A DNA stretch of 64,000 bases from Chrysoperla carnea (taxonomy: Eukaryota > Arthropoda > Insecta > Neuroptera > Chrysopidae): the NCBI RefSeq assembly GCF_905475395.1, contig NC_058339.1, forward strand, positions 57,669,172 through 57,733,171, in the 5' to 3' direction. A program made the position numbers and the translations under genes. Each line of letters begins with the position of its first letter. Positions within the stretch are counted from its first letter, which is position 1. Shown here piece by piece: positions 9,413 through 62,612 of the stretch. The notes beneath the pieces are model-generated. The model had not been told where the DNA came from. It ran no database searches and saw only the letters and a program-made list of their open reading frames with translations.

Positions 9413-9946
9413 GATATTCCTCAAAGTATAAAGATGAACTAATATCCGAAACATATGTCTTGTAAAAATAAAAAAGTTTTAAGGGGAAAAAGCTGAGATT
9501 ATTTATTTAAATATTTCAACATAAGTAAAGTTATAAATTTTTAAGTTGTAAAAATCGTGTAATATAATTAAACTTATTGTCGGCGTAGAAATTTTCACCT
9601 GAAAAATATAAAAATCGGTTAAATTTGACGAAAAATCGAAGTCGTATAAACGAAGGTCGATATCCTGGATCAATTTTAAATTTGACATGAAATTGATTAT
9701 TTAAATATTTTCGGCGGCACTACCATTAAAAATTTAAAATTATTTATTACTTAGATGATACTTACATCTTTCATTATTTAAGGTAATTTAGATCCAACAT
9801 TCAGCTTATTTGACAATTAAATGAGTTAAATATCCTGAAGAATCTCCAAAATAAAAGTTTTTCGTACAGGATTTTTGCAAATATTTAATTGCACATTAAA
9901 TTTTTTTTTGCAATATTACTAATACAGTCTGTGTATAACTACAAAC
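9413..9946. other. AT-rich sequence, nothing recognised
   Basis: No supported feature. Confidence 0.5.
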
Positions 9947-10425
9947 AAGTGAAAACAAACAATTGACTGAGTTAATTGTTGAAATACCATGTATAGACAG
10001 TGTTCATTACTCTATCAGATTACACATACATAACTAATATTCCCTTCTAATACATACTATAATATTTACGCCTAATTTGCGCCCTGACGCTTTTTTTTAT
10101 AAGGAATATTTTTTACATTTAAACTTTTGTTCTATCGCTAACGGTTTACAAGATGGGTCTTACGCACCCAAGACCCAATTGCCCTATGTTGCTCATTTAT
10201 GAACTCGACCTCACTTTTTACTTCCTGAGTACGTTCTAAAAATTTCAGTTATATATCTTCTTTCATTTTTGAGTTATCGCGTTCACAGACGGAAGGACAA
10301 CCGAAAGTGGACCAATTAAGTGATTTTATGAACACCTATACCAAATTTTTGTTGGTTGCATCAAAATCTTTAAGCGTTACAAACTTGGGACTAAACTTCG
10401 TATACCTTGTATATTAGGTACATAT
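9947..10425 (-). repeat. R1 interspersed repeat, copy 2
   Basis: A near full-length copy. It has the 3' block aagtgaaaacaaacaattga, the ttttgttctatcgctaacgg block, the tgagttatcgcg block and the 5' part ending ccttgtatat. Confidence 0.75.
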
Positions 10426-10563
10426 ACACATGATATATTAAAAATTCGAATCAACAACGAGATAAAATATACTTGTATGTCTGTAATTGAATTACGTTTG
10501 AATAATTTATATCTAAAGTATTTCGATTTGAATAACTAATAAATTGACTGTCATTTGTTTCAG

Positions 10564-22867: not shown

Positions 22868-22873
22868 GAGGAC
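22868..22873. other. Target site duplication, left copy
   Basis: The bases gaggac directly precede the left tip of the palindromic element and recur directly after its right tip. Six bases is the usual Polinton/Maverick target duplication. The right copy is 37080-37085. Confidence 0.85.
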
Positions 22874-23217
22874 AGTAGATAAGCTATACCAGTCCGGGCC
22901 CACTTTTGCTCATTTTTACATGTTATTTCTTATGGGAAATTCTAAGGTCCATTTTGCACTTTTTTGTTCCTTTTTATGTAATGCTGGTTGCCTAACCTTA
23001 ACGCATACTTATTATTTATGTATGTATATTGTATTCAATTACAACCCATCTGAACCACACTTGTTAACACACTTACATCATACTCTTTACTTACCATTAT
23101 TTGTAATTTAGCATACGTAGCGTACGTTGGTATAATTGTCAACATAACTTCTTCATGTATTAACAGCGAATATTAATAATATTATATGGATTGCTTAAAA
23201 AAATTTTACTTACTACT

Positions 23218-23290
23218 ATAAGATTTGAACGCGGGCCCTCATGAGCTGAAGTCTACTATGCTAACCACTCAACCACAAGACCTTGTTACA
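23218..23290 (-). ncRNA. tRNA-like block with pol III A and B boxes (left)
   Basis: Mirror of 36663-36735, with the A box at 23265-23275 and B box at 23221-23232, both on the minus strand. Confidence 0.45.
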
Positions 23291-23412
23291 ACATAGACAA
23301 AAAAAGTTAATAACTTAAAAACGTTTTTACAAAAATAATTTAAAATATTATATTCATGAAGGTCAAATATTATTTAAAGTGTTTTGTAAAAAGAAACTCA
23401 ATTACATTATTT

Positions 23413-23642
23413 AGATTTTTATTTTATTAGTAAACAATATTGATATACAGTATAATAATATTAATATATACTAAATTATAAATAGATAGCTAATTTACAA
23501 GGTAATAATAATTCAATGGTTAATTATGCATTTTTTAATTTATTGGTAGATTTTTATTTTATTGGTAAACAATTGATATACAATACAATAATATTAATAC
23601 TAAATTATAAATAGATAATTAATTTATAAGATAACAATTCTA
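23413..23642. repeat. Diverged direct duplication in the 3' region of left PolB, with poly(A) signals
   Basis: Mirror of 36311-36540, with AATAAA on the minus strand at 23558-23563 and 23423-23428. Confidence 0.55.
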
Positions 23643-24035
23643 TTGCTAAAAGAAAACTCTAATTAATTTGTTTAATTATATGTAAATAATTTAATATATA
23701 AGTTTCTGCAAGTCCTATGACAAATTTTAAAACATACGATTTTTTTTTTATAAATGAGCATATATTCAATTTGTTTTAGAGGTTATAAAAATTAATTTTA
23801 CGTTACACACACACACAATCACACCTCAATGAGATGACATTTTAAAAATCAACAAAAAAAACATTTTAACATAATATTAAATAGGTAATAATTAATTAAT
23901 TAATTAAAGTTTACACTGATTTTTTAACAATATTGAGATTATTGAGATAACTTATGAATTCAAGAATTTCACTATAAATGATATTAGCATCGATCTCTTC
24001 AATGAATAAGTGATATTGTCATGCTTACGAATTAA

Positions 24036-27000
24036 CTATACATTTTTTTTCTTTTTGATGCAAGGTTCATCTATATATTCAGCTTTTCGTTTATAGGTTG
24101 TAGTATTCAAAGAATAGTGACCCCAGGGTAGTGTATCATAGGAACCAGGTATAATATATCGCTTATCATCATAAGGGCTTAGAGCAATTTTTGTCTGAGT
24201 TTGGGTGTAAAGCTTAAGTTTATCAGATTTTATGAGGTTTTGATCAACTGATATCTCTTTAAATTCCTCCAAACATTCAACATAATCTTCAAATGTTATT
24301 TTCGTACTAAGAACTGACCTTTTAACTCCCTTAGCTTTTTTTGTTAACCCAAGATTATTTGGTTCTTGTTTAATATTCCCATGATTAAATATAGCATCAT
24401 CAAGTGATTTTGATTGTTTTTCTAGAGGGGTTGCTATTTTTAATGTATATAATTTTGATCGTAATCCTACAAAATGAGTCATAGGAGTTCCATTGTTTTC
24501 ATCCTTCATCATACCAAGCACTTTCTTATTAACGCAAGGTATATTATAAACATTAGAAGGATGGTAATCACTGGTATCAAAATACTTGTGACAATCTCTT
24601 TTTATCATTTCATAGGGATCATGGTTTTTAATTTCGTAAATAACCGAGTCAGTATCTGTATAGATAGCGGTAGAATCATCACCCAGCTGTGGAATCATAT
24701 AGCCATAATGAAAATCATAAATTGTAGTTTTAGCTAAATCTAAGATTGCCATACCAATATACAAAGGCTTATTGAAGAATATCTCCATCTTTTTCAACTC
24801 AATAGCCACCAAGTTTGAATTGAAAATTGTACAAGAATGAAATTGGGGTTTAGATATATAAGCTTCTGCCCCATATCGACCCTCCCATTTTGTAACAAGC
24901 TTTACATTAGAATGTTTCCTAATATTTTCCATTGTTTTTCCAAAGACGGCATTGTTCATTAATTTATACAAATTTTTCTCAAAATCATTATTAGCATTCT
25001 TTCGTAGTTTGGTATTTAAATCAATATATGATTGAAGCCAAGGCGACTGTTTAAATTTTAAAACTTTATGAATTTTTTCTAATTTTAGCCCATTGTTTAA
25101 TGCCTGCTTCAATGTTCTATAATGAATTACATATCGCTCTTTATCATGAAGAGTACCCATCAATTTACTCTGTTTAGAATTAGGTGCTGTTCTATGTTCA
25201 GGGCAAAAAGGTAAATCCTTATGTTTATCATGAAGTTCTTCAGGATATTTGAGATCCACTTCTAAGAAATATCCATTATCAGCGTCATCTAAAATCATCG
25301 AAACATCAATATCTGTATCACACCACTCAAAACCACTGTAAGGAAGACACTGACTCATCGCCCATCCATATTGATTGTTAATGTCTGTATAAAGTAAATA
25401 CACTTCAGGCTTGGATGGATCAAATCCTGGAATGTATTTATTATTCGCTGTGGAACGTCGTTTCATACATTGACTCAAACCACCGCGAATTCCTCGTTCG
25501 ACAAACATCATCATATCTATATCAGTCAACAATTCGAGCTCAATATTTGTATACTTCAACATACAGTCAAACGTAAATCCCGGAAGTGTATAGTAATTTC
25601 CCGGGTCAATGTTGTACGTAGACAGACAGGTTGCTCTAAACGTTTCGAAAATATCCGTAAGTAGCATTATATCCGTTTCCATATAGAGATCTACATAATC
25701 ACCTAAATTTGAACAATTAAATGCTGACCAAACGTTTTGCGCATGATGATACATTTGTCTAGAACACTGTTTCTCCTCCAATCGATTATAGAATGCTTCT
25801 ATGTTCGGTAGTTGAGTGTAATTAAATTTATCAAAAGAATCAATAAAATCATATGGCATTACACCTTTCTTTTTCAACAATTGAAACTGATTTTCTGAAA
25901 CGTTAGAAAAACGCTTCTTCATGTTAGGAAATTCCGACAAGTATGAAGCTAGCTTATCAAGGGAAGAAGCTAAAAATCTGAATGAATCTATGAATCGAAA
26001 TTTTATAGATGAATCTTCAATGTTTTTGGTGAAAGAAATATATTTTTCTTTGGTAACAGGTAAAAGTTCAACGCGCCCTCCAATCTTTGTCGCAACATCT
26101 TCAACTATCAGCATCCCATCATAATTTGACATATTATGGAACACTACAGGAACAACATGGCTATCTTGATAATTAATATTACATGATTCGTGGGCAGGGC
26201 CTCTGTAATTGGTACCATCTTTATATCCACCAGTTTTCGACGCAAGATGAAAATGGTCTCTAACTTTCTTTTCCTCATCCACAAATGGTTTATTACATAT
26301 ATGACAATGTGTAGATTTCTGAAAATCTTCCTCTTCAATAGTAGTTAATGGATCCATCTCATACGAGCACAATAAAATTGTTTCCACTTCTTCAGATATT
26401 TGTTTTAACTCCCTTATAAACCAATCCATACAATCCACTCCACGATATGAACGATAATATGATAATGAATCATCATAAGCACATTTAAAATAATACCCAA
26501 CAACAGCAGGTATATGTTTTTGATACCGAATTTTATCATCCAGAGGTTCCAATACAGATTCGATATCCCCGTAAATGATAAAAGGGGTTTTCTCTTTATT
26601 TTTAAAATTTTTGAATTTTAAAATATTTTCTCCTTCCTTAGGCATTCTTATCGCACAATCATTCATTTTCTTACAGTTTTCATAATGGCTGTTCAATTTT
26701 TCTTCTGAGTAGAAATAGTGTAAGCATCGCTCACAGAAAAACTTTTTATGACCATCTTTATTCAGCTGGGAGGAAACCAAACGTGATAGATTTTTAACCC
26801 AAACGTAATGATAACGAATGGGTAATAAATTATTATCATTATCATCAACATCTTCATCATACTGATCTTGAATCAGTAATAAATTCACATGATTAATCAA
26901 TTTATTTTTTGTTAAGTAGCATGGCACAACATTAAAATTTTTCAAGTGTTTCTTCAGTACATAAACATTTATCGATATTTCATTTTGATTTTCAAAGTTA

Positions 27001-27884
27001 GGTATCTGTTTTAGTGTCATTGGAAACTGTACACCTTTCAACTTCAACACTTTTGAATAATGTGGATATTTTGAAATACGCTGGGGATGCTTCTCAACTG
27101 GATACAATGCTGACGTCACAGCCCACGCAAAGCATGCATTATCATCATTCTTTACGTTTATACAAGCTTCTAGTCGTTTGATTTGGGTAGGTAGTTCAAT
27201 ATATGACGATCCAAGTAATGGTGTATATTTATTTATATTAACACCAAGGTTAATAATGTTTACTAGAGCCCAACCGCTATCGCGTTCCTGGAATTCTTCC
27301 AAATCACGTGTTATCGGACCAACAACATTCTTCCCAAACCATTCATTCACATCAGTATTCTGATATATTGGATTATTTGAAGTAGTGAAGTATTTGTGTT
27401 CAGTTATCATTTTGTTTGCAGATACAATTTGAAATTCTCCACAGAAAATAACGTTAACTTTTATAGCTTCATGAATTTTCAGAACGTTACTTATTCTTCG
27501 TCGAAAAAGTGCTTCACAATCCTTCAAAAATGCTTTAGGATCTTTATGTTTCAGATTACTAATAATACCAGTTCTAAGCCGACTCTCAAATGCAGATAGG
27601 GAATCATCCCATCGTACTCTCTTTGCAGCCGTCTCTTTTCGACTTTGAACACCTGCTCCGTGCTTTAACATACACTTAAGATTGCAACGATAACTTTTTA
27701 CAAGAGCCAAGTTTGCTAACAAATTCTGCTTTTTACCAACAGATTTTGCAGCTTTCAATTTTTTACATATCCGTCGAACAGCAATATTGCAATTTTTCAA
27801 TCCATCTCCAATATTCAATTTATTAGCAGTCATGGTGTCGATAGATTTTATTTTCTCCAACAAAGTAGACATTGAGTACGTCAT
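24036..27884 (-). CDS. Protein-primed family B DNA polymerase (Polinton-type pPolB), left copy
   Basis: A 1,282-residue protein identical to the copy at 32069-35917, read toward the left tip. It would replicate the linear element from a terminal protein in the nucleus or cytoplasm. Residues counted from the ATG: Cys2-His-Cys finger C384/C387/H400/C404; exonuclease motifs ExoI D440/E442, ExoII N584/D589 and ExoIII Y734/D738; an endonuclease VII-like zinc insertion C527/C530/H544/H546/C568 between ExoI and ExoII; polymerase motif A D834; motif B K974 to G982; motif C YTDTDS with D1077/D1079; KxY K1144/Y1146; and a basic C-terminus. All expected catalytic residues are present, so the enzyme looks intact. 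The start is the ATG at 27884; a GTG two codons upstream is not a plausible eukaryotic start. The promoter and a 5'UTR intron lie at 27901-28539. Confidence 0.92.
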   Translation of the reverse strand: MTYSMSTLLEKIKSIDTMTANKLNIGDGLKNCNIAVRRICKKLKAAKSVGKKQNLLANLALVKSYRCNLKCMLKHGAGVQSRKETAAKRVRWDDSLSAFESRLRTGIISNLKHKDPKAFLKDCEALFRRRISNVLKIHEAIKVNVIFCGEFQIVSANKMITEHKYFTTSNNPIYQNTDVNEWFGKNVVGPITRDLEEFQERDSGWALVNIINLGVNINKYTPLLGSSYIELPTQIKRLEACINVKNDDNACFAWAVTSALYPVEKHPQRISKYPHYSKVLKLKGVQFPMTLKQIPNFENQNEISINVYVLKKHLKNFNVVPCYLTKNKLINHVNLLLIQDQYDEDVDDNDNNLLPIRYHYVWVKNLSRLVSSQLNKDGHKKFFCERCLHYFYSEEKLNSHYENCKKMNDCAIRMPKEGENILKFKNFKNKEKTPFIIYGDIESVLEPLDDKIRYQKHIPAVVGYYFKCAYDDSLSYYRSYRGVDCMDWFIRELKQISEEVETILLCSYEMDPLTTIEEEDFQKSTHCHICNKPFVDEEKKVRDHFHLASKTGGYKDGTNYRGPAHESCNINYQDSHVVPVVFHNMSNYDGMLIVEDVATKIGGRVELLPVTKEKYISFTKNIEDSSIKFRFIDSFRFLASSLDKLASYLSEFPNMKKRFSNVSENQFQLLKKKGVMPYDFIDSFDKFNYTQLPNIEAFYNRLEEKQCSRQMYHHAQNVWSAFNCSNLGDYVDLYMETDIMLLTDIFETFRATCLSTYNIDPGNYYTLPGFTFDCMLKYTNIELELLTDIDMMMFVERGIRGGLSQCMKRRSTANNKYIPGFDPSKPEVYLLYTDINNQYGWAMSQCLPYSGFEWCDTDIDVSMILDDADNGYFLEVDLKYPEELHDKHKDLPFCPEHRTAPNSKQSKLMGTLHDKERYVIHYRTLKQALNNGLKLEKIHKVLKFKQSPWLQSYIDLNTKLRKNANNDFEKNLYKLMNNAVFGKTMENIRKHSNVKLVTKWEGRYGAEAYISKPQFHSCTIFNSNLVAIELKKMEIFFNKPLYIGMAILDLAKTTIYDFHYGYMIPQLGDDSTAIYTDTDSVIYEIKNHDPYEMIKRDCHKYFDTSDYHPSNVYNIPCVNKKVLGMMKDENNGTPMTHFVGLRSKLYTLKIATPLEKQSKSLDDAIFNHGNIKQEPNNLGLTKKAKGVKRSVLSTKITFEDYVECLEEFKEISVDQNLIKSDKLKLYTQTQTKIALSPYDDKRYIIPGSYDTLPWGHYSLNTTTYKRKAEYIDEPCIKKKKNV

Positions 27885-27900
27885 TTTCACTGTATGAAAT

Positions 27901-28506
27901 CTAGAAATGATATAAGAAAAAATAGGTTTTAATCGTATAATATATAATCAATAATTATAGTTCAAATACATGAAGATAAACGAACTTTTACAAATATTAC
28001 TGATATTATCACATAGAAAAAATAAAATTTTATATATATGTGTACAGTAATGCTGAACCTAAAACATAATTTTGTAATAGTTTAGATTTTCATATAAACC
28101 AAACATTCTCAATATCTATGTTTTATATACCTAAATCATATAGATAACTGCCCGTTTTGTAAGCGGGTCTTACAGATATCATGATTTGATACAATCACCC
28201 ATATAGAGATACTTCATTAATACACAGATAGAAAACGTTGATTTTAATAGTATACAATCTAATCCAAACAAAAAATATATTATAGTTTTCACTTCGCTTT
28301 ATCATTACAAAGTAATAGATAGATGACGTGTTCGTGTTATGAAACTTACCTTACAACAACAATAATCAACAGTTATATATTTTTTAAGACACACAAACTT
28401 TACAACAATGTTCACGATATGTAACACACTTTTATTATAATAATTTTTAAGGCACTTTTATTATGATTATTAATAACTTGTTCACTTTCACTGTAAATAT
28501 TCAACT
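27901..28506 (-). other. Predicted leader exon and 5'UTR intron of left PolB
   Basis: Mirror of 31447-32052: exon 28350-28506 without any ATG, then intron 27901-28349 with the same donor and acceptor, ending 16 bases before the ATG at 27884. Confidence 0.55.
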
Positions 28507-28539
28507 GAGTCAGGTCAAGGTAATAACGCTGCTTATATA
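28504..28539 (-). promoter_or_regulatory. Core promoter of left PolB (TATA plus TCAGT initiator)
   Basis: Mirror of the right promoter: TATATAA on the minus strand at 28533-28539 and TCAGT at 28504-28508, with the likely start at 28506. Confidence 0.7.
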
Positions 28540-28653
28540 CGTTTTTCAAAATTGAAATATTTGAACATGTTTTGACATGTAAAAAATTGTTCTAGAACAT
28601 TATTTTATAGTTTAACAATTTGAAAAATAGATTATTCATCATCTTGTTACAAG

Positions 28654-28985
28654 TTCAAACTTGTTTGAAATAATTTTACATGTATCAAAACACGTGACCG
28701 GATGTTAATATTTTTTTATGATTAAGCAATGTAATATGACACTTGAAATTTACATAATAAAAATACATGTTCAAACTTGTTTGAATGGACTTTGATCTTA
28801 AAATAATTTTACACGTGTCAGCTATTCTCAAGAATATGTTGAAATAGATTTGACCTTGAAAAATATGATATCATCATCCTGTTACAAGTTCAAACTTGTT
28901 TGAATAAAAATACATGTTCAAACTTGTTTGAACATGTTTAAACTTGTTTGAATCGCATTAGATCTTAAAATAATTTTACACGTGT
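28654..28985 (-). promoter_or_regulatory. Iteron array upstream of left PolB
   Basis: Mirror of 30968-31299, with the same TTCAAACTTGTTTGAA-type palindromes and CACGTG boxes. One base differs between arms within it (28684 versus 31269). Confidence 0.6.
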
Positions 28986-29048
28986 TATGAGATTAGAATA
29001 AAGGTTTTATTTAATAAAAATCTTTATTTTTTTTTTATACAACACAAA

Positions 29049-29120
29049 TATGTTCGCAAAAACGGTCCACTATGACAGATTTTTTATTGTTACAAGTATG
29101 TTCATAAAAACGGTCCACTA
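29049..29120. repeat. 48-bp-period direct duplication at integrase remnant 3' end, left
   Basis: Two copies of a segment containing cggtccacta are spaced 48 bp apart. The first overlaps the last codons and stop of the integrase remnant. The mirror is 30833-30904. Confidence 0.6.
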
Positions 29121-29329
29121 TAAAATAAGACTTTTTTATCAATATATGAATCGTGTAAAGAGTCGAACACTAACCACCTGACTTTAACGTTGGATTCACG
29201 TTTAGCTAAGACCTTTTCCACTAAATAAATGTTTGGATGGTGAACTTTTTGTAATTCTTCGGCATAGAAACCACCCTTTATATCTTCGTTGCTGTTATCC
29301 TTCAATAAATATACAGGTCTCTTTCTAAA
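29102..29329 (-). pseudogene. Polinton integrase C-terminus (chromodomain remnant), left copy
   Basis: The exact mirror of 30624-30851: the same chromodomain-like peptide and stop codon, with the same abrupt junction to 16-bp repeats on the 5' side. Both copies are broken at the same place, so the truncation predates, or occurred together with, the inverted duplication. Confidence 0.72.
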
Positions 29330-29584
29330 CAGGTCTGTATCTAAACAGGTCTGTATCTAAACAGGTCAGTATCTAAACAGATCTGTATCTAAACAGGTCT
29401 CTTTCTAAACAGGTCTCTTTCTAAACAGGTCTGTTTCTAAACAGGTCTGTATCTAAACAGGTCTGTATCTAAACAGGTCTCTTTCTATACAGGTCTGTTT
29501 CTAAACAGGTCTCTTTCTAAACAGGTCTGTATCTAAACAGGTCTCTTTCTAAACAGGTCTCTTTCTAAACAGGTCTCTTTCTAA
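29313..29584. repeat. 16-bp tandem repeat array, left
   Basis: Seventeen units of the aacaggtctctttcta type, with interspersed gtat, gttt and cttt variants. The order of variants matches the right array unit for unit, except for one base in the eighth unit from the centre (29464). Confidence 0.85.
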
Positions 29585-29767
29585 CAGATCAGTATTAAAC
29601 AGGTCTGTTTAGTACTGGTTTGACCTGTTTAATTATATTAATTGATAAATTAAGAAGGCTACATTCTACAAACATCGGAAGAGAAATACTATCTATAATC
29701 CAATACTTGAGGAAAACAAATATAATTAAATAACAAGTTTATAATAACTTTATCAAAAATTAAAAAG

Positions 29768-29939
29768 CTGGAGTAAAATCGGTGAAAACCGGAGTAAAAC
29801 CGGAGTAAAATCGGCGAAAGTCGGAGTAAAATCGGTGAAAACCGGAGTAAAATCGGCGAAAGTCGGAGTAAAATCGGTGAAAACCGGAGTAAAACCGGAG
29901 TAAAATCGGCGAAAGTCGGAGCAAAATCGGAATAAAATT
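29768..29939. repeat. 42-bp tandem repeat array at the palindrome centre, left
   Basis: Repeats of gagtaaaatcggtgaaaacc and gagtaaaatcggcgaaagtc modules that together form a 42-bp unit, 172 bp in all. An open frame across it is a by-product of the repeat and encodes no recognisable protein. Confidence 0.85.
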
Positions 29940-29971
29940 GATAAAATGAATACATGTATGTAGATCTAATG
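29940..29971. other. Asymmetric 32-base loop at the palindrome centre
   Basis: The unpaired bases between the two arms, containing the small palindrome tacatgta. Such a short unique spacer is what a fold-back of single-stranded DNA onto itself would leave. Confidence 0.8.
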
Positions 29972-30185
29972 AATTTTATTCCGATTTTGCTCCGACTTTC
30001 GCCGATTTTACTCCGGTTTTACTCCGGTTTTCACTGATTTTACTCCGACTTTCGCCGATTTTACTCCGGTTTTCACCGATTTTACTCCGACTTTCGCCGA
30101 TTTTACTCCGGTTTTCACCGATTTTACTCCGACTTTCGCCGATTTTACTCCGGTTTTACTCCGGTTTTCACCGATTTTACTCCAG
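29972..30185. repeat. 42-bp tandem repeat array at the palindrome centre, right
   Basis: 214 bp of the same repeat in inverted orientation, exactly one 42-bp unit longer than the left array. One unit has cactgatt where the others have caccgatt. Confidence 0.85.
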
Positions 30186-30368
30186 CTTTTTAATTTTTGA
30201 TAAAGTTATTATAAACTTGTTATTTAATTATATTTGTTTTCCTCAAGTATTGGATTATAGATAGTATTTCTCTTCCGATGTTTGTAGAATGTAGCCTTCT
30301 TAATTTATCAATTAATATAATTAAACAGGTCAAACCAGTACTAAACAGACCTGTTTAATACTGATCTG

Positions 30369-30640
30369 TTAGAAAGAGACCTGTTTAGAAAGAGACCTGT
30401 TTAGAAAGAGACCTGTTTAGATACAGACCTGTTTAGAAAGAGACCTGTTTAGAAACAGACCTGTATAGAAAGAGACCTGTTTAGATACTGACCTGTTTAG
30501 ATACAGACCTGTTTAGAAACAGACCTGTTTAGAAAGAGACCTGTTTAGAAAGAGACCTGTTTAGATACAGATCTGTTTAGATACTGACCTGTTTAGATAC
30601 AGACCTGTTTAGATACAGACCTGTTTAGAAAGAGACCTGT
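30369..30640. repeat. 16-bp tandem repeat array, right
   Basis: Seventeen units of tagaaagagacctgtt and variants, in mirror order to the left array. It abuts the broken 5' edge of the integrase remnant. Confidence 0.85.
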
Positions 30641-30851
30641 ATATTTATTGAAGGATAACAGCAACGAAGATATAAAGGGTGGTTTCTATGCCGAAGAATT
30701 ACAAAAAGTTCACCATCCAAACATTTATTTAGTGGAAAAGGTCTTAGCTAAACGTGAATCCAACGTTAAAGTCAGGTGGTTAGTGTTCGACTCTTTACAC
30801 GATTCATATATTGATAAAAAAGTCTTATTTTATAGTGGACCGTTTTTATGA
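30624..30851 (+). pseudogene. Polinton integrase C-terminus (chromodomain remnant), right copy
   Basis: An open stretch ending in TGA at 30849-30851 encodes about 70 residues that read as the end of a Polinton-type integrase. A VYLLKD segment is followed by GGFYAEELQKV, as in the linker before the chromodomain, then a chromodomain-like block with YLVEKVL, KVRW and FDSLHDSYI. The catalytic DDE core is absent: upstream the frame runs straight into the 16-bp tandem repeats. There is no ATG; TTG or other codons would be needed. Poly(A) signals follow at 30925-30930 and 30942-30947. It lies upstream of PolB on the same strand, so the parent element probably had integrase then PolB in tandem. Identification rests on motif recognition, not a search. 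Confidence 0.72.
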
Positions 30852-30904
30852 ACATACTTGTAACAATAAAAAATCTGTCATAGTGGACCGTTTTTGCGAA
30901 CATA
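30833..30904. repeat. 48-bp-period direct duplication at integrase remnant 3' end, right
   Basis: tagtggaccgttttt occurs at 30833 and 30881, each followed by gaacata. It covers the end of the integrase remnant and its downstream sequence. Confidence 0.6.
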
Positions 30905-30967
30905 TTTGTGTTGTATAAAAAAAAAATAAAGATTTTTATTAAATAAAACCTTTATTCTAATCTCATA

Positions 30968-31299
30968 ACACGTGTAAAATTATTTTAAGATCTAATGCGA
31001 TTCAAACAAGTTTAAACATGTTCAAACAAGTTTGAACATGTATTTTTATTCAAACAAGTTTGAACTTGTAACAGGATGATGATATCATATTTTTCAAGGT
31101 CAAATCTATTTCAACATATTCTTGAGAATAGCTGACACGTGTAAAATTATTTTAAGATCAAAGTCCATTCAAACAAGTTTGAACATGTATTTTTATTATG
31201 TAAATTTCAAGTGTCATATTACATTGCTTAATCATAAAAAAATATTAACATCCGGTCACGTGTTTTGACACATGTAAAATTATTTCAAACAAGTTTGAA
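30968..31299 (+). promoter_or_regulatory. Iteron array upstream of right PolB
   Basis: The near-palindrome TTCAAACAAGTTTGAA occurs at 31021, 31049, 31168 and 31284, with a variant at 31001. Two copies of acacgtgtaaaattatttt (30968 and 31135) and a third diverged one near 31269 make the array look like two to three degenerate units of about 130-165 bp. CACGTG is an E-box. It lies 115-450 bases upstream of the TATA box. A role as enhancer, silencer or replication site is inference. The mirror is 28654-28985. Confidence 0.6.
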
Positions 31300-31413
31300 C
31301 TTGTAACAAGATGATGAATAATCTATTTTTCAAATTGTTAAACTATAAAATAATGTTCTAGAACAATTTTTTACATGTCAAAACATGTTCAAATATTTCA
31401 ATTTTGAAAAACG

Positions 31414-31449
31414 TATATAAGCAGCGTTATTACCTTGACCTGACTCAGT
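31414..31449 (+). promoter_or_regulatory. Core promoter of right PolB (TATA plus TCAGT initiator)
   Basis: TATATAA at 31414-31420 is followed by the arthropod initiator TCAGT at 31445-31449, placing the A at 31447 about 31-33 bases downstream of the TATA box, the standard spacing for RNA polymerase II. Transcription would start near 31447 toward the polymerase. Confidence 0.7.
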
Positions 31450-31603
31450 TGAATATTTACAGTGAAAGTGAACAAGTTATTAATAATCATAATAAAAGTG
31501 CCTTAAAAATTATTATAATAAAAGTGTGTTACATATCGTGAACATTGTTGTAAAGTTTGTGTGTCTTAAAAAATATATAACTGTTGATTATTGTTGTTGT
31601 AAG
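31447..31603 (+). other. Predicted non-coding leader exon of right PolB
   Basis: It runs from the initiator to a strong splice donor (aag|gtaagt). The 157 bases contain no ATG at all, unlike the intron after it, which supports a genuine 5'UTR exon. The mirror is 28350-28506. Confidence 0.55.
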
Positions 31604-32052
31604 GTAAGTTTCATAACACGAACACGTCATCTATCTATTACTTTGTAATGATAAAGCGAAGTGAAAACTATAATATATTTTTTGTTTGGATTAGATTGTA
31701 TACTATTAAAATCAACGTTTTCTATCTGTGTATTAATGAAGTATCTCTATATGGGTGATTGTATCAAATCATGATATCTGTAAGACCCGCTTACAAAACG
31801 GGCAGTTATCTATATGATTTAGGTATATAAAACATAGATATTGAGAATGTTTGGTTTATATGAAAATCTAAACTATTACAAAATTATGTTTTAGGTTCAG
31901 CATTACTGTACACATATATATAAAATTTTATTTTTTCTATGTGATAATATCAGTAATATTTGTAAAAGTTCGTTTATCTTCATGTATTTGAACTATAATT
32001 ATTGATTATATATTATACGATTAAAACCTATTTTTTCTTATATCATTTCTAG
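31604..32052 (+). other. Predicted 5'UTR intron of right PolB (449 bp)
   Basis: The donor gtaagt at 31604 and an acceptor at 32051-32052, preceded by a pyrimidine-rich tract (ttttttcttatatcatttctag), frame a 449-bp intron. Splicing leaves 16 bases before the PolB ATG. The mirror is 27901-28349 on the minus strand. Confidence 0.55.
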
Positions 32053-32068
32053 ATTTCATACAGTGAAA

Positions 32069-35000
32069 ATGACGTACTCAATGTCTACTTTGTTGGAGAA
32101 AATAAAATCTATCGACACCATGACTGCTAATAAATTGAATATTGGAGATGGATTGAAAAATTGCAATATTGCTGTTCGACGGATATGTAAAAAATTGAAA
32201 GCTGCAAAATCTGTTGGTAAAAAGCAGAATTTGTTAGCAAACTTGGCTCTTGTAAAAAGTTATCGTTGCAATCTTAAGTGTATGTTAAAGCACGGAGCAG
32301 GTGTTCAAAGTCGAAAAGAGACGGCTGCAAAGAGAGTACGATGGGATGATTCCCTATCTGCATTTGAGAGTCGGCTTAGAACTGGTATTATTAGTAATCT
32401 GAAACATAAAGATCCTAAAGCATTTTTGAAGGATTGTGAAGCACTTTTTCGACGAAGAATAAGTAACGTTCTGAAAATTCATGAAGCTATAAAAGTTAAC
32501 GTTATTTTCTGTGGAGAATTTCAAATTGTATCTGCAAACAAAATGATAACTGAACACAAATACTTCACTACTTCAAATAATCCAATATATCAGAATACTG
32601 ATGTGAATGAATGGTTTGGGAAGAATGTTGTTGGTCCGATAACACGTGATTTGGAAGAATTCCAGGAACGCGATAGCGGTTGGGCTCTAGTAAACATTAT
32701 TAACCTTGGTGTTAATATAAATAAATATACACCATTACTTGGATCGTCATATATTGAACTACCTACCCAAATCAAACGACTAGAAGCTTGTATAAACGTA
32801 AAGAATGATGATAATGCATGCTTTGCGTGGGCTGTGACGTCAGCATTGTATCCAGTTGAGAAGCATCCCCAGCGTATTTCAAAATATCCACATTATTCAA
32901 AAGTGTTGAAGTTGAAAGGTGTACAGTTTCCAATGACACTAAAACAGATACCTAACTTTGAAAATCAAAATGAAATATCGATAAATGTTTATGTACTGAA
33001 GAAACACTTGAAAAATTTTAATGTTGTGCCATGCTACTTAACAAAAAATAAATTGATTAATCATGTGAATTTATTACTGATTCAAGATCAGTATGATGAA
33101 GATGTTGATGATAATGATAATAATTTATTACCCATTCGTTATCATTACGTTTGGGTTAAAAATCTATCACGTTTGGTTTCCTCCCAGCTGAATAAAGATG
33201 GTCATAAAAAGTTTTTCTGTGAGCGATGCTTACACTATTTCTACTCAGAAGAAAAATTGAACAGCCATTATGAAAACTGTAAGAAAATGAATGATTGTGC
33301 GATAAGAATGCCTAAGGAAGGAGAAAATATTTTAAAATTCAAAAATTTTAAAAATAAAGAGAAAACCCCTTTTATCATTTACGGGGATATCGAATCTGTA
33401 TTGGAACCTCTGGATGATAAAATTCGGTATCAAAAACATATACCTGCTGTTGTTGGGTATTATTTTAAATGTGCTTATGATGATTCATTATCATATTATC
33501 GTTCATATCGTGGAGTGGATTGTATGGATTGGTTTATAAGGGAGTTAAAACAAATATCTGAAGAAGTGGAAACAATTTTATTGTGCTCGTATGAGATGGA
33601 TCCATTAACTACTATTGAAGAGGAAGATTTTCAGAAATCTACACATTGTCATATATGTAATAAACCATTTGTGGATGAGGAAAAGAAAGTTAGAGACCAT
33701 TTTCATCTTGCGTCGAAAACTGGTGGATATAAAGATGGTACCAATTACAGAGGCCCTGCCCACGAATCATGTAATATTAATTATCAAGATAGCCATGTTG
33801 TTCCTGTAGTGTTCCATAATATGTCAAATTATGATGGGATGCTGATAGTTGAAGATGTTGCGACAAAGATTGGAGGGCGCGTTGAACTTTTACCTGTTAC
33901 CAAAGAAAAATATATTTCTTTCACCAAAAACATTGAAGATTCATCTATAAAATTTCGATTCATAGATTCATTCAGATTTTTAGCTTCTTCCCTTGATAAG
34001 CTAGCTTCATACTTGTCGGAATTTCCTAACATGAAGAAGCGTTTTTCTAACGTTTCAGAAAATCAGTTTCAATTGTTGAAAAAGAAAGGTGTAATGCCAT
34101 ATGATTTTATTGATTCTTTTGATAAATTTAATTACACTCAACTACCGAACATAGAAGCATTCTATAATCGATTGGAGGAGAAACAGTGTTCTAGACAAAT
34201 GTATCATCATGCGCAAAACGTTTGGTCAGCATTTAATTGTTCAAATTTAGGTGATTATGTAGATCTCTATATGGAAACGGATATAATGCTACTTACGGAT
34301 ATTTTCGAAACGTTTAGAGCAACCTGTCTGTCTACGTACAACATTGACCCGGGAAATTACTATACACTTCCGGGATTTACGTTTGACTGTATGTTGAAGT
34401 ATACAAATATTGAGCTCGAATTGTTGACTGATATAGATATGATGATGTTTGTCGAACGAGGAATTCGCGGTGGTTTGAGTCAATGTATGAAACGACGTTC
34501 CACAGCGAATAATAAATACATTCCAGGATTTGATCCATCCAAGCCTGAAGTGTATTTACTTTATACAGACATTAACAATCAATATGGATGGGCGATGAGT
34601 CAGTGTCTTCCTTACAGTGGTTTTGAGTGGTGTGATACAGATATTGATGTTTCGATGATTTTAGATGACGCTGATAATGGATATTTCTTAGAAGTGGATC
34701 TCAAATATCCTGAAGAACTTCATGATAAACATAAGGATTTACCTTTTTGCCCTGAACATAGAACAGCACCTAATTCTAAACAGAGTAAATTGATGGGTAC
34801 TCTTCATGATAAAGAGCGATATGTAATTCATTATAGAACATTGAAGCAGGCATTAAACAATGGGCTAAAATTAGAAAAAATTCATAAAGTTTTAAAATTT
34901 AAACAGTCGCCTTGGCTTCAATCATATATTGATTTAAATACCAAACTACGAAAGAATGCTAATAATGATTTTGAGAAAAATTTGTATAAATTAATGAACA

Positions 35001-35917
35001 ATGCCGTCTTTGGAAAAACAATGGAAAATATTAGGAAACATTCTAATGTAAAGCTTGTTACAAAATGGGAGGGTCGATATGGGGCAGAAGCTTATATATC
35101 TAAACCCCAATTTCATTCTTGTACAATTTTCAATTCAAACTTGGTGGCTATTGAGTTGAAAAAGATGGAGATATTCTTCAATAAGCCTTTGTATATTGGT
35201 ATGGCAATCTTAGATTTAGCTAAAACTACAATTTATGATTTTCATTATGGCTATATGATTCCACAGCTGGGTGATGATTCTACCGCTATCTATACAGATA
35301 CTGACTCGGTTATTTACGAAATTAAAAACCATGATCCCTATGAAATGATAAAAAGAGATTGTCACAAGTATTTTGATACCAGTGATTACCATCCTTCTAA
35401 TGTTTATAATATACCTTGCGTTAATAAGAAAGTGCTTGGTATGATGAAGGATGAAAACAATGGAACTCCTATGACTCATTTTGTAGGATTACGATCAAAA
35501 TTATATACATTAAAAATAGCAACCCCTCTAGAAAAACAATCAAAATCACTTGATGATGCTATATTTAATCATGGGAATATTAAACAAGAACCAAATAATC
35601 TTGGGTTAACAAAAAAAGCTAAGGGAGTTAAAAGGTCAGTTCTTAGTACGAAAATAACATTTGAAGATTATGTTGAATGTTTGGAGGAATTTAAAGAGAT
35701 ATCAGTTGATCAAAACCTCATAAAATCTGATAAACTTAAGCTTTACACCCAAACTCAGACAAAAATTGCTCTAAGCCCTTATGATGATAAGCGATATATT
35801 ATACCTGGTTCCTATGATACACTACCCTGGGGTCACTATTCTTTGAATACTACAACCTATAAACGAAAAGCTGAATATATAGATGAACCTTGCATCAAAA
35901 AGAAAAAAAATGTATAG
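32069..35917 (+). CDS. Protein-primed family B DNA polymerase (Polinton-type pPolB), right copy
   Basis: A 1,282-aa protein with an uninterrupted frame ending in TAG. Domain order: N-terminal region typical of arthropod Polinton PolBs, with a conserved Cys in a DNxCFAW setting (C251) and a His before VNLLL (H332); zinc finger 384-404; DnaQ-like 3'-5' exonuclease (ExoI YGDIES near 438-443, ExoII FHNMSNYD near 582-589, ExoIII YMETD near 734-738), interrupted by an endonuclease VII-like Cys/His module at 527-571; palm and fingers with motif A DINNQYG at 834, motif B KLMNNAVFGKT at 974, and motif C YTDTDS at 1075; KxY at 1144-1146; and a C-terminal TLPWGHY block followed by a lysine-rich, possibly nuclear-localising tail. 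The ATG has A at -3. No stop or frameshift interrupts either copy, so function was retained recently. Protein priming is inferred from family membership; no terminal protein gene is recognised here. Confidence 0.92.
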   Translation: MTYSMSTLLEKIKSIDTMTANKLNIGDGLKNCNIAVRRICKKLKAAKSVGKKQNLLANLALVKSYRCNLKCMLKHGAGVQSRKETAAKRVRWDDSLSAFESRLRTGIISNLKHKDPKAFLKDCEALFRRRISNVLKIHEAIKVNVIFCGEFQIVSANKMITEHKYFTTSNNPIYQNTDVNEWFGKNVVGPITRDLEEFQERDSGWALVNIINLGVNINKYTPLLGSSYIELPTQIKRLEACINVKNDDNACFAWAVTSALYPVEKHPQRISKYPHYSKVLKLKGVQFPMTLKQIPNFENQNEISINVYVLKKHLKNFNVVPCYLTKNKLINHVNLLLIQDQYDEDVDDNDNNLLPIRYHYVWVKNLSRLVSSQLNKDGHKKFFCERCLHYFYSEEKLNSHYENCKKMNDCAIRMPKEGENILKFKNFKNKEKTPFIIYGDIESVLEPLDDKIRYQKHIPAVVGYYFKCAYDDSLSYYRSYRGVDCMDWFIRELKQISEEVETILLCSYEMDPLTTIEEEDFQKSTHCHICNKPFVDEEKKVRDHFHLASKTGGYKDGTNYRGPAHESCNINYQDSHVVPVVFHNMSNYDGMLIVEDVATKIGGRVELLPVTKEKYISFTKNIEDSSIKFRFIDSFRFLASSLDKLASYLSEFPNMKKRFSNVSENQFQLLKKKGVMPYDFIDSFDKFNYTQLPNIEAFYNRLEEKQCSRQMYHHAQNVWSAFNCSNLGDYVDLYMETDIMLLTDIFETFRATCLSTYNIDPGNYYTLPGFTFDCMLKYTNIELELLTDIDMMMFVERGIRGGLSQCMKRRSTANNKYIPGFDPSKPEVYLLYTDINNQYGWAMSQCLPYSGFEWCDTDIDVSMILDDADNGYFLEVDLKYPEELHDKHKDLPFCPEHRTAPNSKQSKLMGTLHDKERYVIHYRTLKQALNNGLKLEKIHKVLKFKQSPWLQSYIDLNTKLRKNANNDFEKNLYKLMNNAVFGKTMENIRKHSNVKLVTKWEGRYGAEAYISKPQFHSCTIFNSNLVAIELKKMEIFFNKPLYIGMAILDLAKTTIYDFHYGYMIPQLGDDSTAIYTDTDSVIYEIKNHDPYEMIKRDCHKYFDTSDYHPSNVYNIPCVNKKVLGMMKDENNGTPMTHFVGLRSKLYTLKIATPLEKQSKSLDDAIFNHGNIKQEPNNLGLTKKAKGVKRSVLSTKITFEDYVECLEEFKEISVDQNLIKSDKLKLYTQTQTKIALSPYDDKRYIIPGSYDTLPWGHYSLNTTTYKRKAEYIDEPCIKKKKNV

Positions 35918-36310
35918 TTAATTCGTAAGCATGACAATATCACTTATTCATTGAAGAGATCGATGCTAATATCATTTATAGTGAAATTCTTGAATTCATA
36001 AGTTATCTCAATAATCTCAATATTGTTAAAAAATCAGTGTAAACTTTAATTAATTAATTAATTATTACCTATTTAATATTATGTTAAAATGTTTTTTTTG
36101 TTGATTTTTAAAATGTCATCTCATTGAGGTGTGATTGTGTGTGTGTGTAACGTAAAATTAATTTTTATAACCTCTAAAACAAATTGAATATATGCTCATT
36201 TATAAAAAAAAAATCGTATGTTTTAAAATTTGTCATAGGACTTGCAGAAACTTATATATTAAATTATTTACATATAATTAAACAAATTAATTAGAGTTTT
36301 CTTTTAGCAA

Positions 36311-36540
36311 TAGAATTGTTATCTTATAAATTAATTATCTATTTATAATTTAGTATTAATATTATTGTATTGTATATCAATTGTTTACCAATAAAATAAA
36401 AATCTACCAATAAATTAAAAAATGCATAATTAACCATTGAATTATTATTACCTTGTAAATTAGCTATCTATTTATAATTTAGTATATATTAATATTATTA
36501 TACTGTATATCAATATTGTTTACTAATAAAATAAAAATCT
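36311..36540. repeat. Diverged direct duplication in the 3' region of right PolB, with poly(A) signals
   Basis: About 95 bp at 36311-36405 recur at 36437-36540 (tatctatttataatttag ... aataaaataaaaatct). Each copy contains AATAAA, at 36390-36395 and 36525-36530, the likely polyadenylation signals for PolB, giving a 3'UTR of roughly 500-640 bases. The mirror is 23413-23642. Confidence 0.55.
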
Positions 36541-36662
36541 AAATAATGTAATTGAGTTTCTTTTTACAAAACACTTTAAATAATATTTGACCTTCATGAA
36601 TATAATATTTTAAATTATTTTTGTAAAAACGTTTTTAAGTTATTAACTTTTTTTGTCTATGT

Positions 36663-36735
36663 TGTAACAAGGTCTTGTGGTTGAGTGGTTAGCATAGTAG
36701 ACTTCAGCTCATGAGGGCCCGCGTTCAAATCTTAT
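36663..36735 (+). ncRNA. tRNA-like block with pol III A and B boxes (right)
   Basis: TGGTTGAGTGG at 36678-36688 fits the pol III A box, and gcgttcaaatct at 36721-36732 is a B box with about two mismatches; their spacing is tRNA-like. The anticodon and T stems pair poorly, so this is a degenerate tRNA or the head of a tRNA-derived SINE, not a working tRNA gene. It sits about 350 bases from the tip. Confidence 0.45.
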
Positions 36736-37079
36736 AGTAGTAAGTAAAATTTTTTTAAGCAATCCATATAATATTATTAATATTCGCTGTTAATACATGA
36801 AGAAGTTATGTTGACAATTATACCAACGTACGCTACGTATGCTAAATTACAAATAATGGTAAGTAAAGAGTATGATGTAAGTGTGTTAACAAGTGTGGTT
36901 CAGATGGGTTGTAATTGAATACAATATACATACATAAATAATAAGTATGCGTTAAGGTTAGGCAACCAGCATTACATAAAAAGGAACAAAAAAGTGCAAA
37001 ATGGACCTTAGAATTTCCCATAAGAAATAACATGTAAAAATGAGCAAAAGTGGGCCCGGACTGGTATAGCTTATCTACT
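36736..37079. other. Outer terminal segment of right arm
   Basis: No gene is seen. It ends with a more GC-rich tip containing the GGGCCC palindrome about 30 bases from the end. The mirror is 22874-23217. A short open frame here has no recognisable features. Confidence 0.6.
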
Positions 37080-37085
37080 GAGGAC
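37080..37085. other. Target site duplication, right copy
   Basis: The bases gaggac directly follow the right tip of the element and match the six bases before the left tip. Beyond them the left and right host flanks differ, so this is a true insertion footprint and not a continuation of the palindrome. Confidence 0.85.
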
Positions 37086-45635: not shown

Positions 45636-46045
45636 ATAAGTTTTATACCATGTATGTATGAAATATATCAAGGTATACTAGTTTACTAGTTTAGTCCCAA
45701 GTTTGTAACGCTTAAAAATATTGATGTCACGAACAATATTGGTTTAGATGTTCATAAAATCACCTAATTGGTTCATTTTCGTTTGTTCGTCCGTCTGTCG
45801 ACACGATAACTCAAAAAGGAAAAGAGATAGCCAGCGGATATTATTATTATAGCGTGTTTAGGACGTAAAAAGTGAGGCCGAGTTCGTGTATGAGCAACAT
45901 AGGTTAACGTCTTGGGTTTATAGGATACATCTTGTAAACCGTTAAAGATAGAACAAAAGTTTAAAAAATGTTCCTTATAAAAAATAAACAACTTTTGTTT
46001 GAAACATTTTCTCGTAAACATCGTTGTTTACCCGTGAGGGTTTAG
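45636..46045 (+). repeat. R1 interspersed repeat, copy 3
   Basis: tttgtaacgcttaaaaatat, cacgataactcaaaaagga, taaaccgttaaagatagaac and caacttttgtttgaaacatt are all in R1 order. The 3' end is lacking. Confidence 0.75.
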
Positions 46046-48874: not shown

Positions 48875-51323
48875 GTATTCTTTAAATTTGTAAATTACAA
48901 CTTCATAATTTTATATTTATTTTTGAATGCTAATTCAAAATAGTACACTTCTTCGATTTTTTCAAGTAAATTTAAAATATCTTGAGCAGATTTGTTTTTT
49001 TTTTTTCAAATTTGACTAGAATTACAAAAGTTCCAATGATAGTTAAGTAATCTACAATTAAACAATTACATAATGACAAAATGATTAATTTTAGTTAAAT
49101 TATAGAAATTTATTATATATTCATCAATATATAATAACACACTACTGTAAATATTTATTCAATTGAATGAATGTTACAGGCTATGTTCAAAATAACAATG
49201 CTTTCAAAATTATATTATAAATAAATGAATACAAAGCGTACTTATTTATCGACATTTATTAAACTTATTATTTAAATGTATTAATATAATTATTAATTAT
49301 TATCACAAATATTTTTGTCAAAAATATATTGAAATTTAATTATTTATACAAATAAATTCGTGAACAGCTCCTAGCGGACTGAATAATAAACATTCGCCTC
49401 GTTAAAGAGAAGATCACAATTTCTGAAGGGCTCGAAAAAAATATATTTAAAAAATCTGTAGATTGGTTGAAAAAATTTGAAATTTCATAATTCATAAATA
49501 GATAGAAATTATTTGAAGACAAAAAGACCCTTATTAAACAACAAAACTAACTTTGTCCTGTAAATATATGAATTGTAGAAAATCGATTATGGTCTGTGAT
49601 ATTCTCGTACACACAATCCTTTGAATAACGACCCTATTGGTTTGGCTGTTTCTACAACCAGTTGTAAATGAGTAACAGCACTCATGCCATCACACACATA
49701 TTTATAGCCATGTATGCATGCGAGCAAAGAACGACGAGTCAATAGATTTATCTGTGAGTTGTGGAACGAGACGATGTTTAACTAACATCTCACTTAACCG
49801 ACATCTAATTGATTTCAATCGTCGTAAATGTGTAGTAATTCATTCACATTTAAATACTATGGTGGTCAGGGTTGAGAAATTATGTTTATAAAGGTAATAA
49901 ATTTCTCATTACGAAACTAAATAGCGGAGTGAGATGGAGTCAATTAAACTGATTGACTACGTTTTATTCTTGCCTTGGGAGAATCTTAAAAAGAATTAAT
50001 TAAATTCGATGGACAAGGAGAAACATTTCACTTATACAAATTATTTGAAAACCTTGAGTGCGTATCCGTCGAAACATAAATTTTGTTGCAGCAATATTTT
50101 TATGTTTAAGACTGTTGTCTTGCTACAATATAGACAAAAAGCTTTGGATTATATGCGCAGTTAGAGTATCAGAGCCTGTAATGAATTATGGTAAAATTTT
50201 TTTAGATACTATACCACTCAACTGTTTCTCATTTCATATACTGTTATGAGTTGTTTAAAATTCTGCGCCTCACCATCAGAAGACTGTTTACTATGGCTGT
50301 TTCTGTTCAACAATATAATGCTTTGTATTTATACCTCCTAGTTTTTTAAAATTGCTGGGCAGTTTTTATTTGATTAAAAAATTTGTTAAAAACAGAACCC
50401 TTGCTATATACGCTATCCCAGTTGATGATCCGAATTTTAATTAAGTTTTTCTCGAGTTGGAGATCAAATTTTTATGGTAATTGTATTATAATAACATCTT
50501 TAATAATTATAAAATATTTAAATTTTTCTGACACCATGCCCATATCAAGGCAATGTCTTAAAATGTAATACTAATTTACGTATATAATTTAGAACAGCAA
50601 CTGGAACAATTTATGAGCATTGGGAGATTGAATTAATTTTTGTTTTCAAAGTATATGTTTATGTTCAAATGCCTTCAGTAACTTTCATTCAATGCAATTA
50701 ACAAGGCAGTAAACACGAATGAAAAAAATGAAAACAATTTCTGTAGTCACGACAAATACAGATTTAAGTGCTGTTGTTTTAAAAGGCTTTGAAACTGTTC
50801 AGAGATTTTGACTTTTTTTTGAAAACTTTTATTAATTAGTGACTCACCAAAAAAATTAATTATAAGTAAATGAATGAAAATTATTTACAAAACGTATAGT
50901 AGTTGAAAGCCAATATTAGTCATATTTAATACTAATCATCAAAGGGTTTGGAGGTATTGAACGCAGATATTGAAGGACTCAATTTGTAGAGCGAAAATGG
51001 CAGAGTAAGCAAGATGTTTTTGGTTGAGTCCCCACTCGGATATAGTTCTACTCTTGATGTGAGTCAATTTGAATTATTTGTTCAACCCTGGCAGCATTTT
51101 ACTTTTATATTATTCCACTCTATACATAATAATGTATACTTTCCATATTATTTGTATAAAACCAATGAATTTTATTTGATTACATCAGCGAATATCTGTA
51201 TTCGACCTTAATAATGTGTAATAATACCATAATTTTTTTTTAAAAATAGTTTTAAATAATTTTTTATAGATAGTTTTTATACTCGCTTTATTTTAAAATA
51301 GTTTATATATGTGTGAATTTTTA
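48875..51323. other. AT-rich sequence, nothing recognised
   Basis: No supported feature on either strand. Confidence 0.5.
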
Positions 51324-51805
51324 TACCATGTATATATGTAATATATATCATAGTATATTAAGTTTAGTGCCATGTTTGTAACGCTTAAAAATATTGATGT
51401 TACGAACAAAATTTTTATATAGGTGTTCATAAAATCATCTAATTAGTCCATTTCCGGTTGTCTGTCTGTCTGTCTGTCAACATGATAACTCAAAAACGAA
51501 AAGAGATGTCAACAATTTTTATAGCGGGCTTAGGACGTAAAATGTGAGGTCGAGTTCGTAAATGATCAACATCTTGTAAACTGTTAGAGATAGAACAAAA
51601 GTTTAAATGTAAAAAATGTTCCTTATAAAAACTAAACAACTTTTGTTTGAACCATTTTTTTCGTAAACATCACTATTTACCCGTGGAAATATCAGTTATA
51701 TATGTGTGACATGTATGTGTGAGTAATGTGACAGAGTAATCAACACTGTCTATACATGGTATTTCAACCATTAACTCAGTCAATTGTTTGTTTTCACTTG
51801 TTTGT
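51324..51805 (+). repeat. R1 interspersed repeat, copy 4
   Basis: Near full length: starts ataccatgtatatatgtaat, contains tctgtctgtctgtctgtcaa and gataactcaaaaacg, and ends tcaattgtttgttttcacttg. Confidence 0.8.
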
Positions 51806-62079: not shown

Positions 62080-62612
62080 ATACCATGTATATATGAAATA
62101 TACATATTATGTTAAGTTTAGTCCCAAGTTTTTATACCATTTATATATGAAATATACATAGTATATTAAGTTTAGTTCCAAGTTTGTAACGCTTAAAAAT
62201 ATTGATGCTTAGTCCATTTTCGGTTGTCCGTCTGTCCGACCGTCCGCCTGTCCGCCTGTCAACACGATAACTCAAAAATAAAAAAAGATATCAAGCTGAA
62301 AATTTTACAGCGCACTCAAGACGTATAAAGTGAGGTCGAGTTCGTAAATGAGCAACATAGGTCAATGGGGTCTTGGATCCGTAGGACACATCTTGTAAAC
62401 CGTTAGAGATAGAACAAAAGTTTAAATTTAAAAAATGTTCCTTATAAAAAAACAAACAACTTTTGTTTGAAACATTTTTTTTTGTAAAGAATGTATTAAT
62501 ATGGGATTATCAGTTATGTATGTGTGACATGTATAGGTATATGTGTAATGTGAAAGAGTAATCAACACTGTCTGTCAACTGTCAGTCAATTGTTTGTTTT
62601 CACTTGTTTTTT
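62080..62612 (+). repeat. R1 interspersed repeat, copy 5
   Basis: Near full length. The first about 55 bases are duplicated in tandem (tataccatgtatatatgaaa, then tataccatttatatatgaaa), and the copy ends gtcaattgtttgttttcact. Confidence 0.8.

Follow-up and report, generated by a model that had tools for sequence, protein, structure and literature searches.

A palindromic, Polinton-derived element with an intact PolB gene on each arm in Chrysoperla carnea, and its possible snap-back origin

A stretch of 64,000 nucleotides of Chrysoperla carnea DNA (contig NC_058339.1, positions 57,669,172 to 57,733,171, forward strand; hereafter the window) contains a palindromic element, which consists of two head-to-head arms around a short loop and is bounded on both sides by a 6-bp target duplication (Table 1). 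Each arm carries one intact, outward-reading PolB gene of 1,284 codons. These two genes are the only complete open reading frames (ORFs) of at least 120 aa in the window; the ORF calling would miss genes split by introns. The window is AT-rich, with a GC content of 24–33% per 2 kb across the 64 kb.

Table 1. Coordinates of the element, its borders and its internal features in the window.
Feature	Position	Strand	Remarks
Palindromic element	22874..37079	.	14,206 bp; tips 5'-AGTAGA...TCTACT-3'
Target duplication, left copy	22868..22873	+	GAGGAC, 6 bp
Target duplication, right copy	37080..37085	+	GAGGAC, 6 bp
Left arm to loop	22874..29939	.	7,066 bp
Right arm to loop	29972..37079	.	7,108 bp; longer by one 42-bp unit
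Asymmetric loop	29940..29971	.	32 nt; 9-bp inverted microhomology AATAAAATT / AATTTTATT on either side
Left PolB gene	24036..27890	-	DNA_pol_B_2; 1284 aa from GTG, 1282 aa from first ATG; stop toward tip
Right PolB gene	32063..35917	+	same as left gene at 3,855/3,855 nt
84-codon stop-free stretch, left arm	29102..29356	-	upstream of left PolB; extends into 16-bp array
84-codon stop-free stretch, right arm	30597..30851	+	same as left-arm stretch
16-bp tandem array, left arm	29313..29610	.	~19 copies
16-bp tandem array, right arm	30343..30640	.	~19 copies
21/42-bp tandem array adjoining loop, left	29770..29938	.	
21/42-bp tandem array adjoining loop, right	29973..30183	.	one 42-bp unit longer
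tRNA-like A-box/B-box pair, then T run	23222..23275	-	348 bp from left tip
tRNA-like A-box/B-box pair, then T run	36678..36731	+	348 bp from right tip

Ungapped pairing of the arms aligned 22873–29903 with 30050–37080, so that 7,031 nt of each arm are paired across a spacer of 146 nt; the outermost pair (one base per side) is a chance C/G match in the flanks. The spacer reaches this geometric width mostly because of the extra 42-bp unit in the right tandem array, as seen in a gapped alignment of the centre. The arms differ by only 2 substitutions over 7,066 gap-free aligned positions and by that one 42-bp unit. One substitution (28684/31269) lies in unique sequence and the other (29464/30489) lies within the 16-bp array, and the outer 5,810 bp of both arms show no difference. 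In 20 mononucleotide shuffles of the element, the longest exact inverted repeat was 14–20 nt; the longest ungapped inverted repeat inside either flank alone was 144 nt (85%), and gapped inverted matches among the dispersed repeats of the window reached up to 536 columns (73%). No further copies of the arm were found within the window at E 1e-3. These results indicate that one terminus is duplicated head to head round a short asymmetric loop, as is expected of a snap-back molecule. The 16-bp and 21/42-bp arrays flank the axis, as such arrays do in Foldback-type elements.

At an assumed substitution rate of 2.9e-9 per site and generation, the divergence of the arms over 7,030 positions, taken at face value, would correspond to about 49,000 generations, which is only a guess, because gene conversion or sequence errors would alter the figure.

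The ends of the element read AGTAGATAAGC...GCTTATCTACT, with GAGGAC adjoining each. When the ends were shifted in 12 trims, a 6-bp direct repeat was seen at trim 0 only, a 4-bp repeat was seen at one other trim, and the remainder gave less than 4 bp; the chance of a 6-bp direct repeat at a fixed offset is about 6e-4. The host flanks (200 bp each), aligned as an inverted repeat, were 32.5% identical, which represents no inverted similarity. The flanks are thus not inverted copies of each other, and the symmetry therefore ends at the element tips. A sequence-only reading of this DNA had placed the element at exactly these coordinates, and its 14.2-kb inverted repeat with AG...CT tips and flanking gaggac is borne out by the arm pairing and by the comparison of the tips and flanks, as are its two identical PolB genes facing outward by the alignment of the two genes. 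The element thus has both the 6-bp target site duplication and the AG-type ends of the terminal inverted repeats (TIRs) of Polinton/Maverick elements, since AGTAGA...TCTACT agrees with (AGT)2//(ACT)2 at 5/6 positions.

Residues 581–1060 of PolB match PF03175 (DNA_pol_B_2) at 1e-25, and this match, together with motifs located by eye, shows that the protein belongs to the family B polymerases. Among the strings located by eye, DIE (from residue 442), NMSNYD and YMETD are presumably the exonuclease motifs, and YTDINNQY, KLMNNAVFGK, YTDTDS and KLY are those that we take to be the polymerase motifs. In addition, NDDNACFAWAV at 248–258 and HVNLLL at 334, also located by eye, would fit the catalytic Cys and His of the OTU-like protease in polinton polymerases. 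In polinton pPolB, a terminal protein, followed by an OTU protease and then by the exonuclease and polymerase, has been modelled (PMC11071308, preprint). For the PolB of this element, we infer putative terminal-protein and OTU domains, so that one arm may combine a terminal origin with a whole protein-primed replicase. AlphaFold2 single-sequence models of PolB had predicted local distance difference test (pLDDT) scores of 35.0 and 32.1, which are too poor for fold searches.

A CxxC...DHxH...YRG..H..CN stretch, which we take to be HNH/endonuclease-VII-like, is located at residues 528–571 (33644–33775) in the exonuclease region. Residues 518–577 weakly match phrog_4581, annotated as terminase small subunit (E 0.0022). 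Homing-endonuclease domains are inserted at varied sites in polinton pPolB (PMC11071308, preprint), and the stretch is possibly the relic of such an insertion. Other weak domain rows for PolB, zf-MYST (0.019), CdhC (0.057) and phrog_19012 (0.33), were not relied on. The PDB sequence search gave 0 matches for whole PolB at 1e-3 and 0 for two PolB pieces at E up to 10. Likewise, 0 relatives of PolB came from the viral contig collection, the genome contig collection and the phage records (the last by tblastn), which says little, because only viral and prokaryotic sequences are covered there and near relatives may have been omitted.

Including the PolB genes, 33 stop-to-stop stretches of at least 60 aa overlap the element or its edges, and the domain scan of the smaller ORFs of the element covered the 84-codon tail listed in Table 1 and one array ORF. 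No RVE-family integrase was found, as there is no non-PolB ORF of at least 120 aa and just the 84-codon tail, which has no family match. Similarly, no capsid, ATPase or protease gene was found among ORFs of at least 120 aa, the shorter ones being mostly not scanned. The claim that the element has no other replication, capsid or packaging gene thus stands as far as non-PolB ORFs of this length are concerned, but a terminal protein and a protease may sit inside PolB. Because published polinton polymerases carry both in one chain, everything needed for replication may be present in the element. Capsid, protease and ATPase genes are also missing from nine recorded Polintons (PMC4028283), and the loss of virion genes alone is therefore not new. 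Since neither an integrase nor a virion gene was found, we call the element Polinton-derived rather than a Polinton.

The 84-codon tail may be similar to the chromodomain-like terminus of Polinton integrases. It had no Pfam or NCBIfam match; its best PDB rows were at chance level (E 0.46, and 0.5 and 0.51 for a SAWADEE domain), and a 76-aa tail query had 0 relatives in the viral contig collection. Nor is its length above chance, as the longest stop-free stretch in 27891–29310 is 68 codons, a length attained in 172 of 500 mononucleotide shuffles. The "integrase sequence" of the sequence-only reading is thus just an 84-codon tail beside PolB that matches no family. If the tail is nevertheless an integrase, the parent had its integrase upstream of the polymerase, and the arm starts where the integrase gene was cut.

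The tRNA-like stretches near the tips were the only hits in the window, one per arm, of an A-box/B-box pattern that had been loosened after the site was seen and was applied without a chance control. They may represent a tRNA-derived RNA polymerase III unit or a piece of a short interspersed nuclear element. A tRNA gene near the tips was rejected, as the tRNA finders called none and the fold z-score was 0.07 relative to shuffles; ARAGORN found no tRNA at the 95% and 80% thresholds, and made tRNA calls at 70% only. Outside the element, a dispersed repeat of about 0.4–0.5 kb occurs in at least four copies (9940–10447, 45638–46036, 51316–51803 and 62129–62609), which are 72–78% alike pairwise and lie in both orientations. 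For host genes, the 8 flanking ORFs had no Pfam match at the cutoff, with one row at E 0.079.

In vertebrates, intact Mavericks show 6-bp duplications and ends that are mostly (AGT)2//(ACT)2 or (AG)3//(CT)3; their TIRs measure 46–1,447 bp and the whole elements 12.7–24.6 kb (PMC8097293). The element resembles Polinton/Maverick elements in its 6-bp duplication, its AGT-type tips, its family-B polymerase of the viral/organellar type, and its size, which is within the published range. In contrast, its TIRs of about 7 kb span everything, compared with 46–1,447 bp in the intact vertebrate elements (PMC8097293), and it has two polymerase genes. It also differs from them in that intact integrase, capsid, ATPase and protease genes were not found.

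Hairpin or duplex forms are reported from other linear replicons as well. A deletion derivative of the kalilo linear plasmid reportedly forms hairpin and duplex DNA, to judge from a title, and a hairpin plasmid of yeast pGKL1 is said to exist, which the literature search did not confirm. These derivatives are extrachromosomal and occur in fungi. In so far as these reports hold, the element would resemble them as a protein-primed linear replicon cut down to a hairpin or duplex form, and differs from them in its chromosomal insertion flanked by a target duplication. Foldback and Galileo elements, to our knowledge, have no PolB. Like the element, they have long TIRs with internal repeats, and unlike it, they have a P-element-type transposase (PMC3573991). 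No palindromic or snap-back Polinton, and no whole-element palindrome with two polymerases, was met in the literature at the level of titles and abstract openings, a scope that leaves subscription journals mostly outside. Adeno-associated virus (AAV) is a parvovirus, primed by its own hairpin. AAV populations hold snapback genomes, some of which have the P5 promoter and part of rep, so that in these genomes, as in the element, one end and a replication gene (part of it in AAV) are doubled head to head round a loop (PMC8235507). Unlike the integrated element with its target duplication, AAV genomes are packaged and free.

The 6-bp duplication, the AGTAGA...TCTACT tips and the polymerase family support the earlier proposal that the element has a Polinton parent whose end was duplicated head to head. 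The reading that we favour, and to which we give an even chance of being right, is that the element is a snap-back (copy-back) Polinton derivative that, as a linear palindrome, was replicated and then inserted by an integrase acting in trans. It is supported by the 6-bp duplication at the tips, the fit of these tips to the Maverick end motif, the non-inverted flanks, the near-equal arms, the 32-nt loop and the PolB domain match and motifs, and the AAV snapback genomes and the reported kalilo derivative serve as precedents for it. Protein-primed linear replicons are copied by strand displacement from each end. In a Polinton undergoing such replication, the strand being extended would have come off the template near the centre, at the 9-bp inverted microhomology, and turned back on itself to serve as its own template as far as the tip; the tandem arrays round the axis may be the fragile spot at which this occurred. 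The product would be a linear molecule with a full pPolB (terminal protein, OTU protease, exonuclease and polymerase) in each half. Because the same end would be present on both sides, the same origin would be as well, and the palindromic molecule would replicate from both tips. An integrase supplied in trans by a Polinton would then insert the palindrome, leaving the 6-bp duplication, and either the insertion would be young or the arms would have been kept alike through replication or gene conversion. As each arm would keep the tip, with the origin, and a complete polymerase, replication would not depend on the parent, whose help would be needed for integration only.

Several points weigh against the snap-back reading. 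The palindrome is known from one locus only, the source of the integrase was not found, and the poor models did not show the terminal-protein and TPR domains expected in PolB. In vertebrate Mavericks, the polymerase module mostly faces inward and does not contain the integrase, which belongs to the other module, with exceptions in the orientation of the polymerase module in two toad/frog species (PMC8097293), whereas here the polymerase faces outward and the putative integrase tail lies beside PolB on the same strand. Moreover, repair in situ predicts the same anatomy. A break in a resident Polinton would have destroyed its middle and right part, and the right TIR would have invaded its left counterpart, undergone about 7 kb of inward copying, and been end-joined to the left half. 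This would yield the same palindrome, the same short asymmetric junction and the retained 6-bp duplication with no integrase required in trans, so that the proposal that the palindrome was integrated as a unit fits the anatomy and is unproven. However, copying would have had to end no more than 32 nt from the break point of the left half, and no older, unconverted right-tip stretch is seen, the outer 5,810 bp being identical, though a young element would show none. We therefore regard formation in place as fairly unlikely.

It is unlikely, in our judgement, that the family is normally palindromic, either as a self-sufficient element with two PolB genes or as a Polinton with PolB in long TIRs, relying on a borrowed integrase. 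The polymerase is indeed intact and identical in both arms, one chain would hold the whole replicase if the polinton pPolB layout holds, and there is a record of Polintons that lack the capsid, protease and ATPase genes (the nine in PMC4028283). Conversely, the TIRs of intact vertebrate Mavericks are just 46–1,447 bp (PMC8097293), and the possible truncated integrase tail by the expanded array may indicate that a larger parent was broken. We hold equally doubtful the more specific proposal of a self-sufficient mobile class, namely a palindromic linear replicon with an origin at each end, whose sole gene, present twice, would be a polymerase that includes its own terminal protein and protease, and which would be a satellite borrowing the integrase of full Polintons. 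Long inverted repeats are generally hard to assemble, and an artefact of assembly or library could have linked one Polinton end, as a fold-back chimera, to the other flank via a real, shorter TIR, with the true middle dropped. Fold-back reads, however, would also have produced a mirrored host flank, which is not seen, and simple copying of a single molecule would not leave 2 substitutions and a 42-bp unit between the arms. For these two reasons, such a misassembly is less likely, and we consider it quite improbable.

Protein priming on free linear DNA is the presumed mode of Polinton replication, for which direct evidence is scarce. Maverick particles have not been observed (PMC8097293). If the snap-back reading is true, the element, flanked by its target duplication, would be a chromosomal fossil of a free, strand-displacing Polinton form. 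It would also point to an integrase that takes any molecule as long as both ends are good, irrespective of the sequence in the middle. Polintons would then, as viruses do, give off satellites, and what would be special here is that the leftover arm would retain both the origin tip and a complete polymerase.

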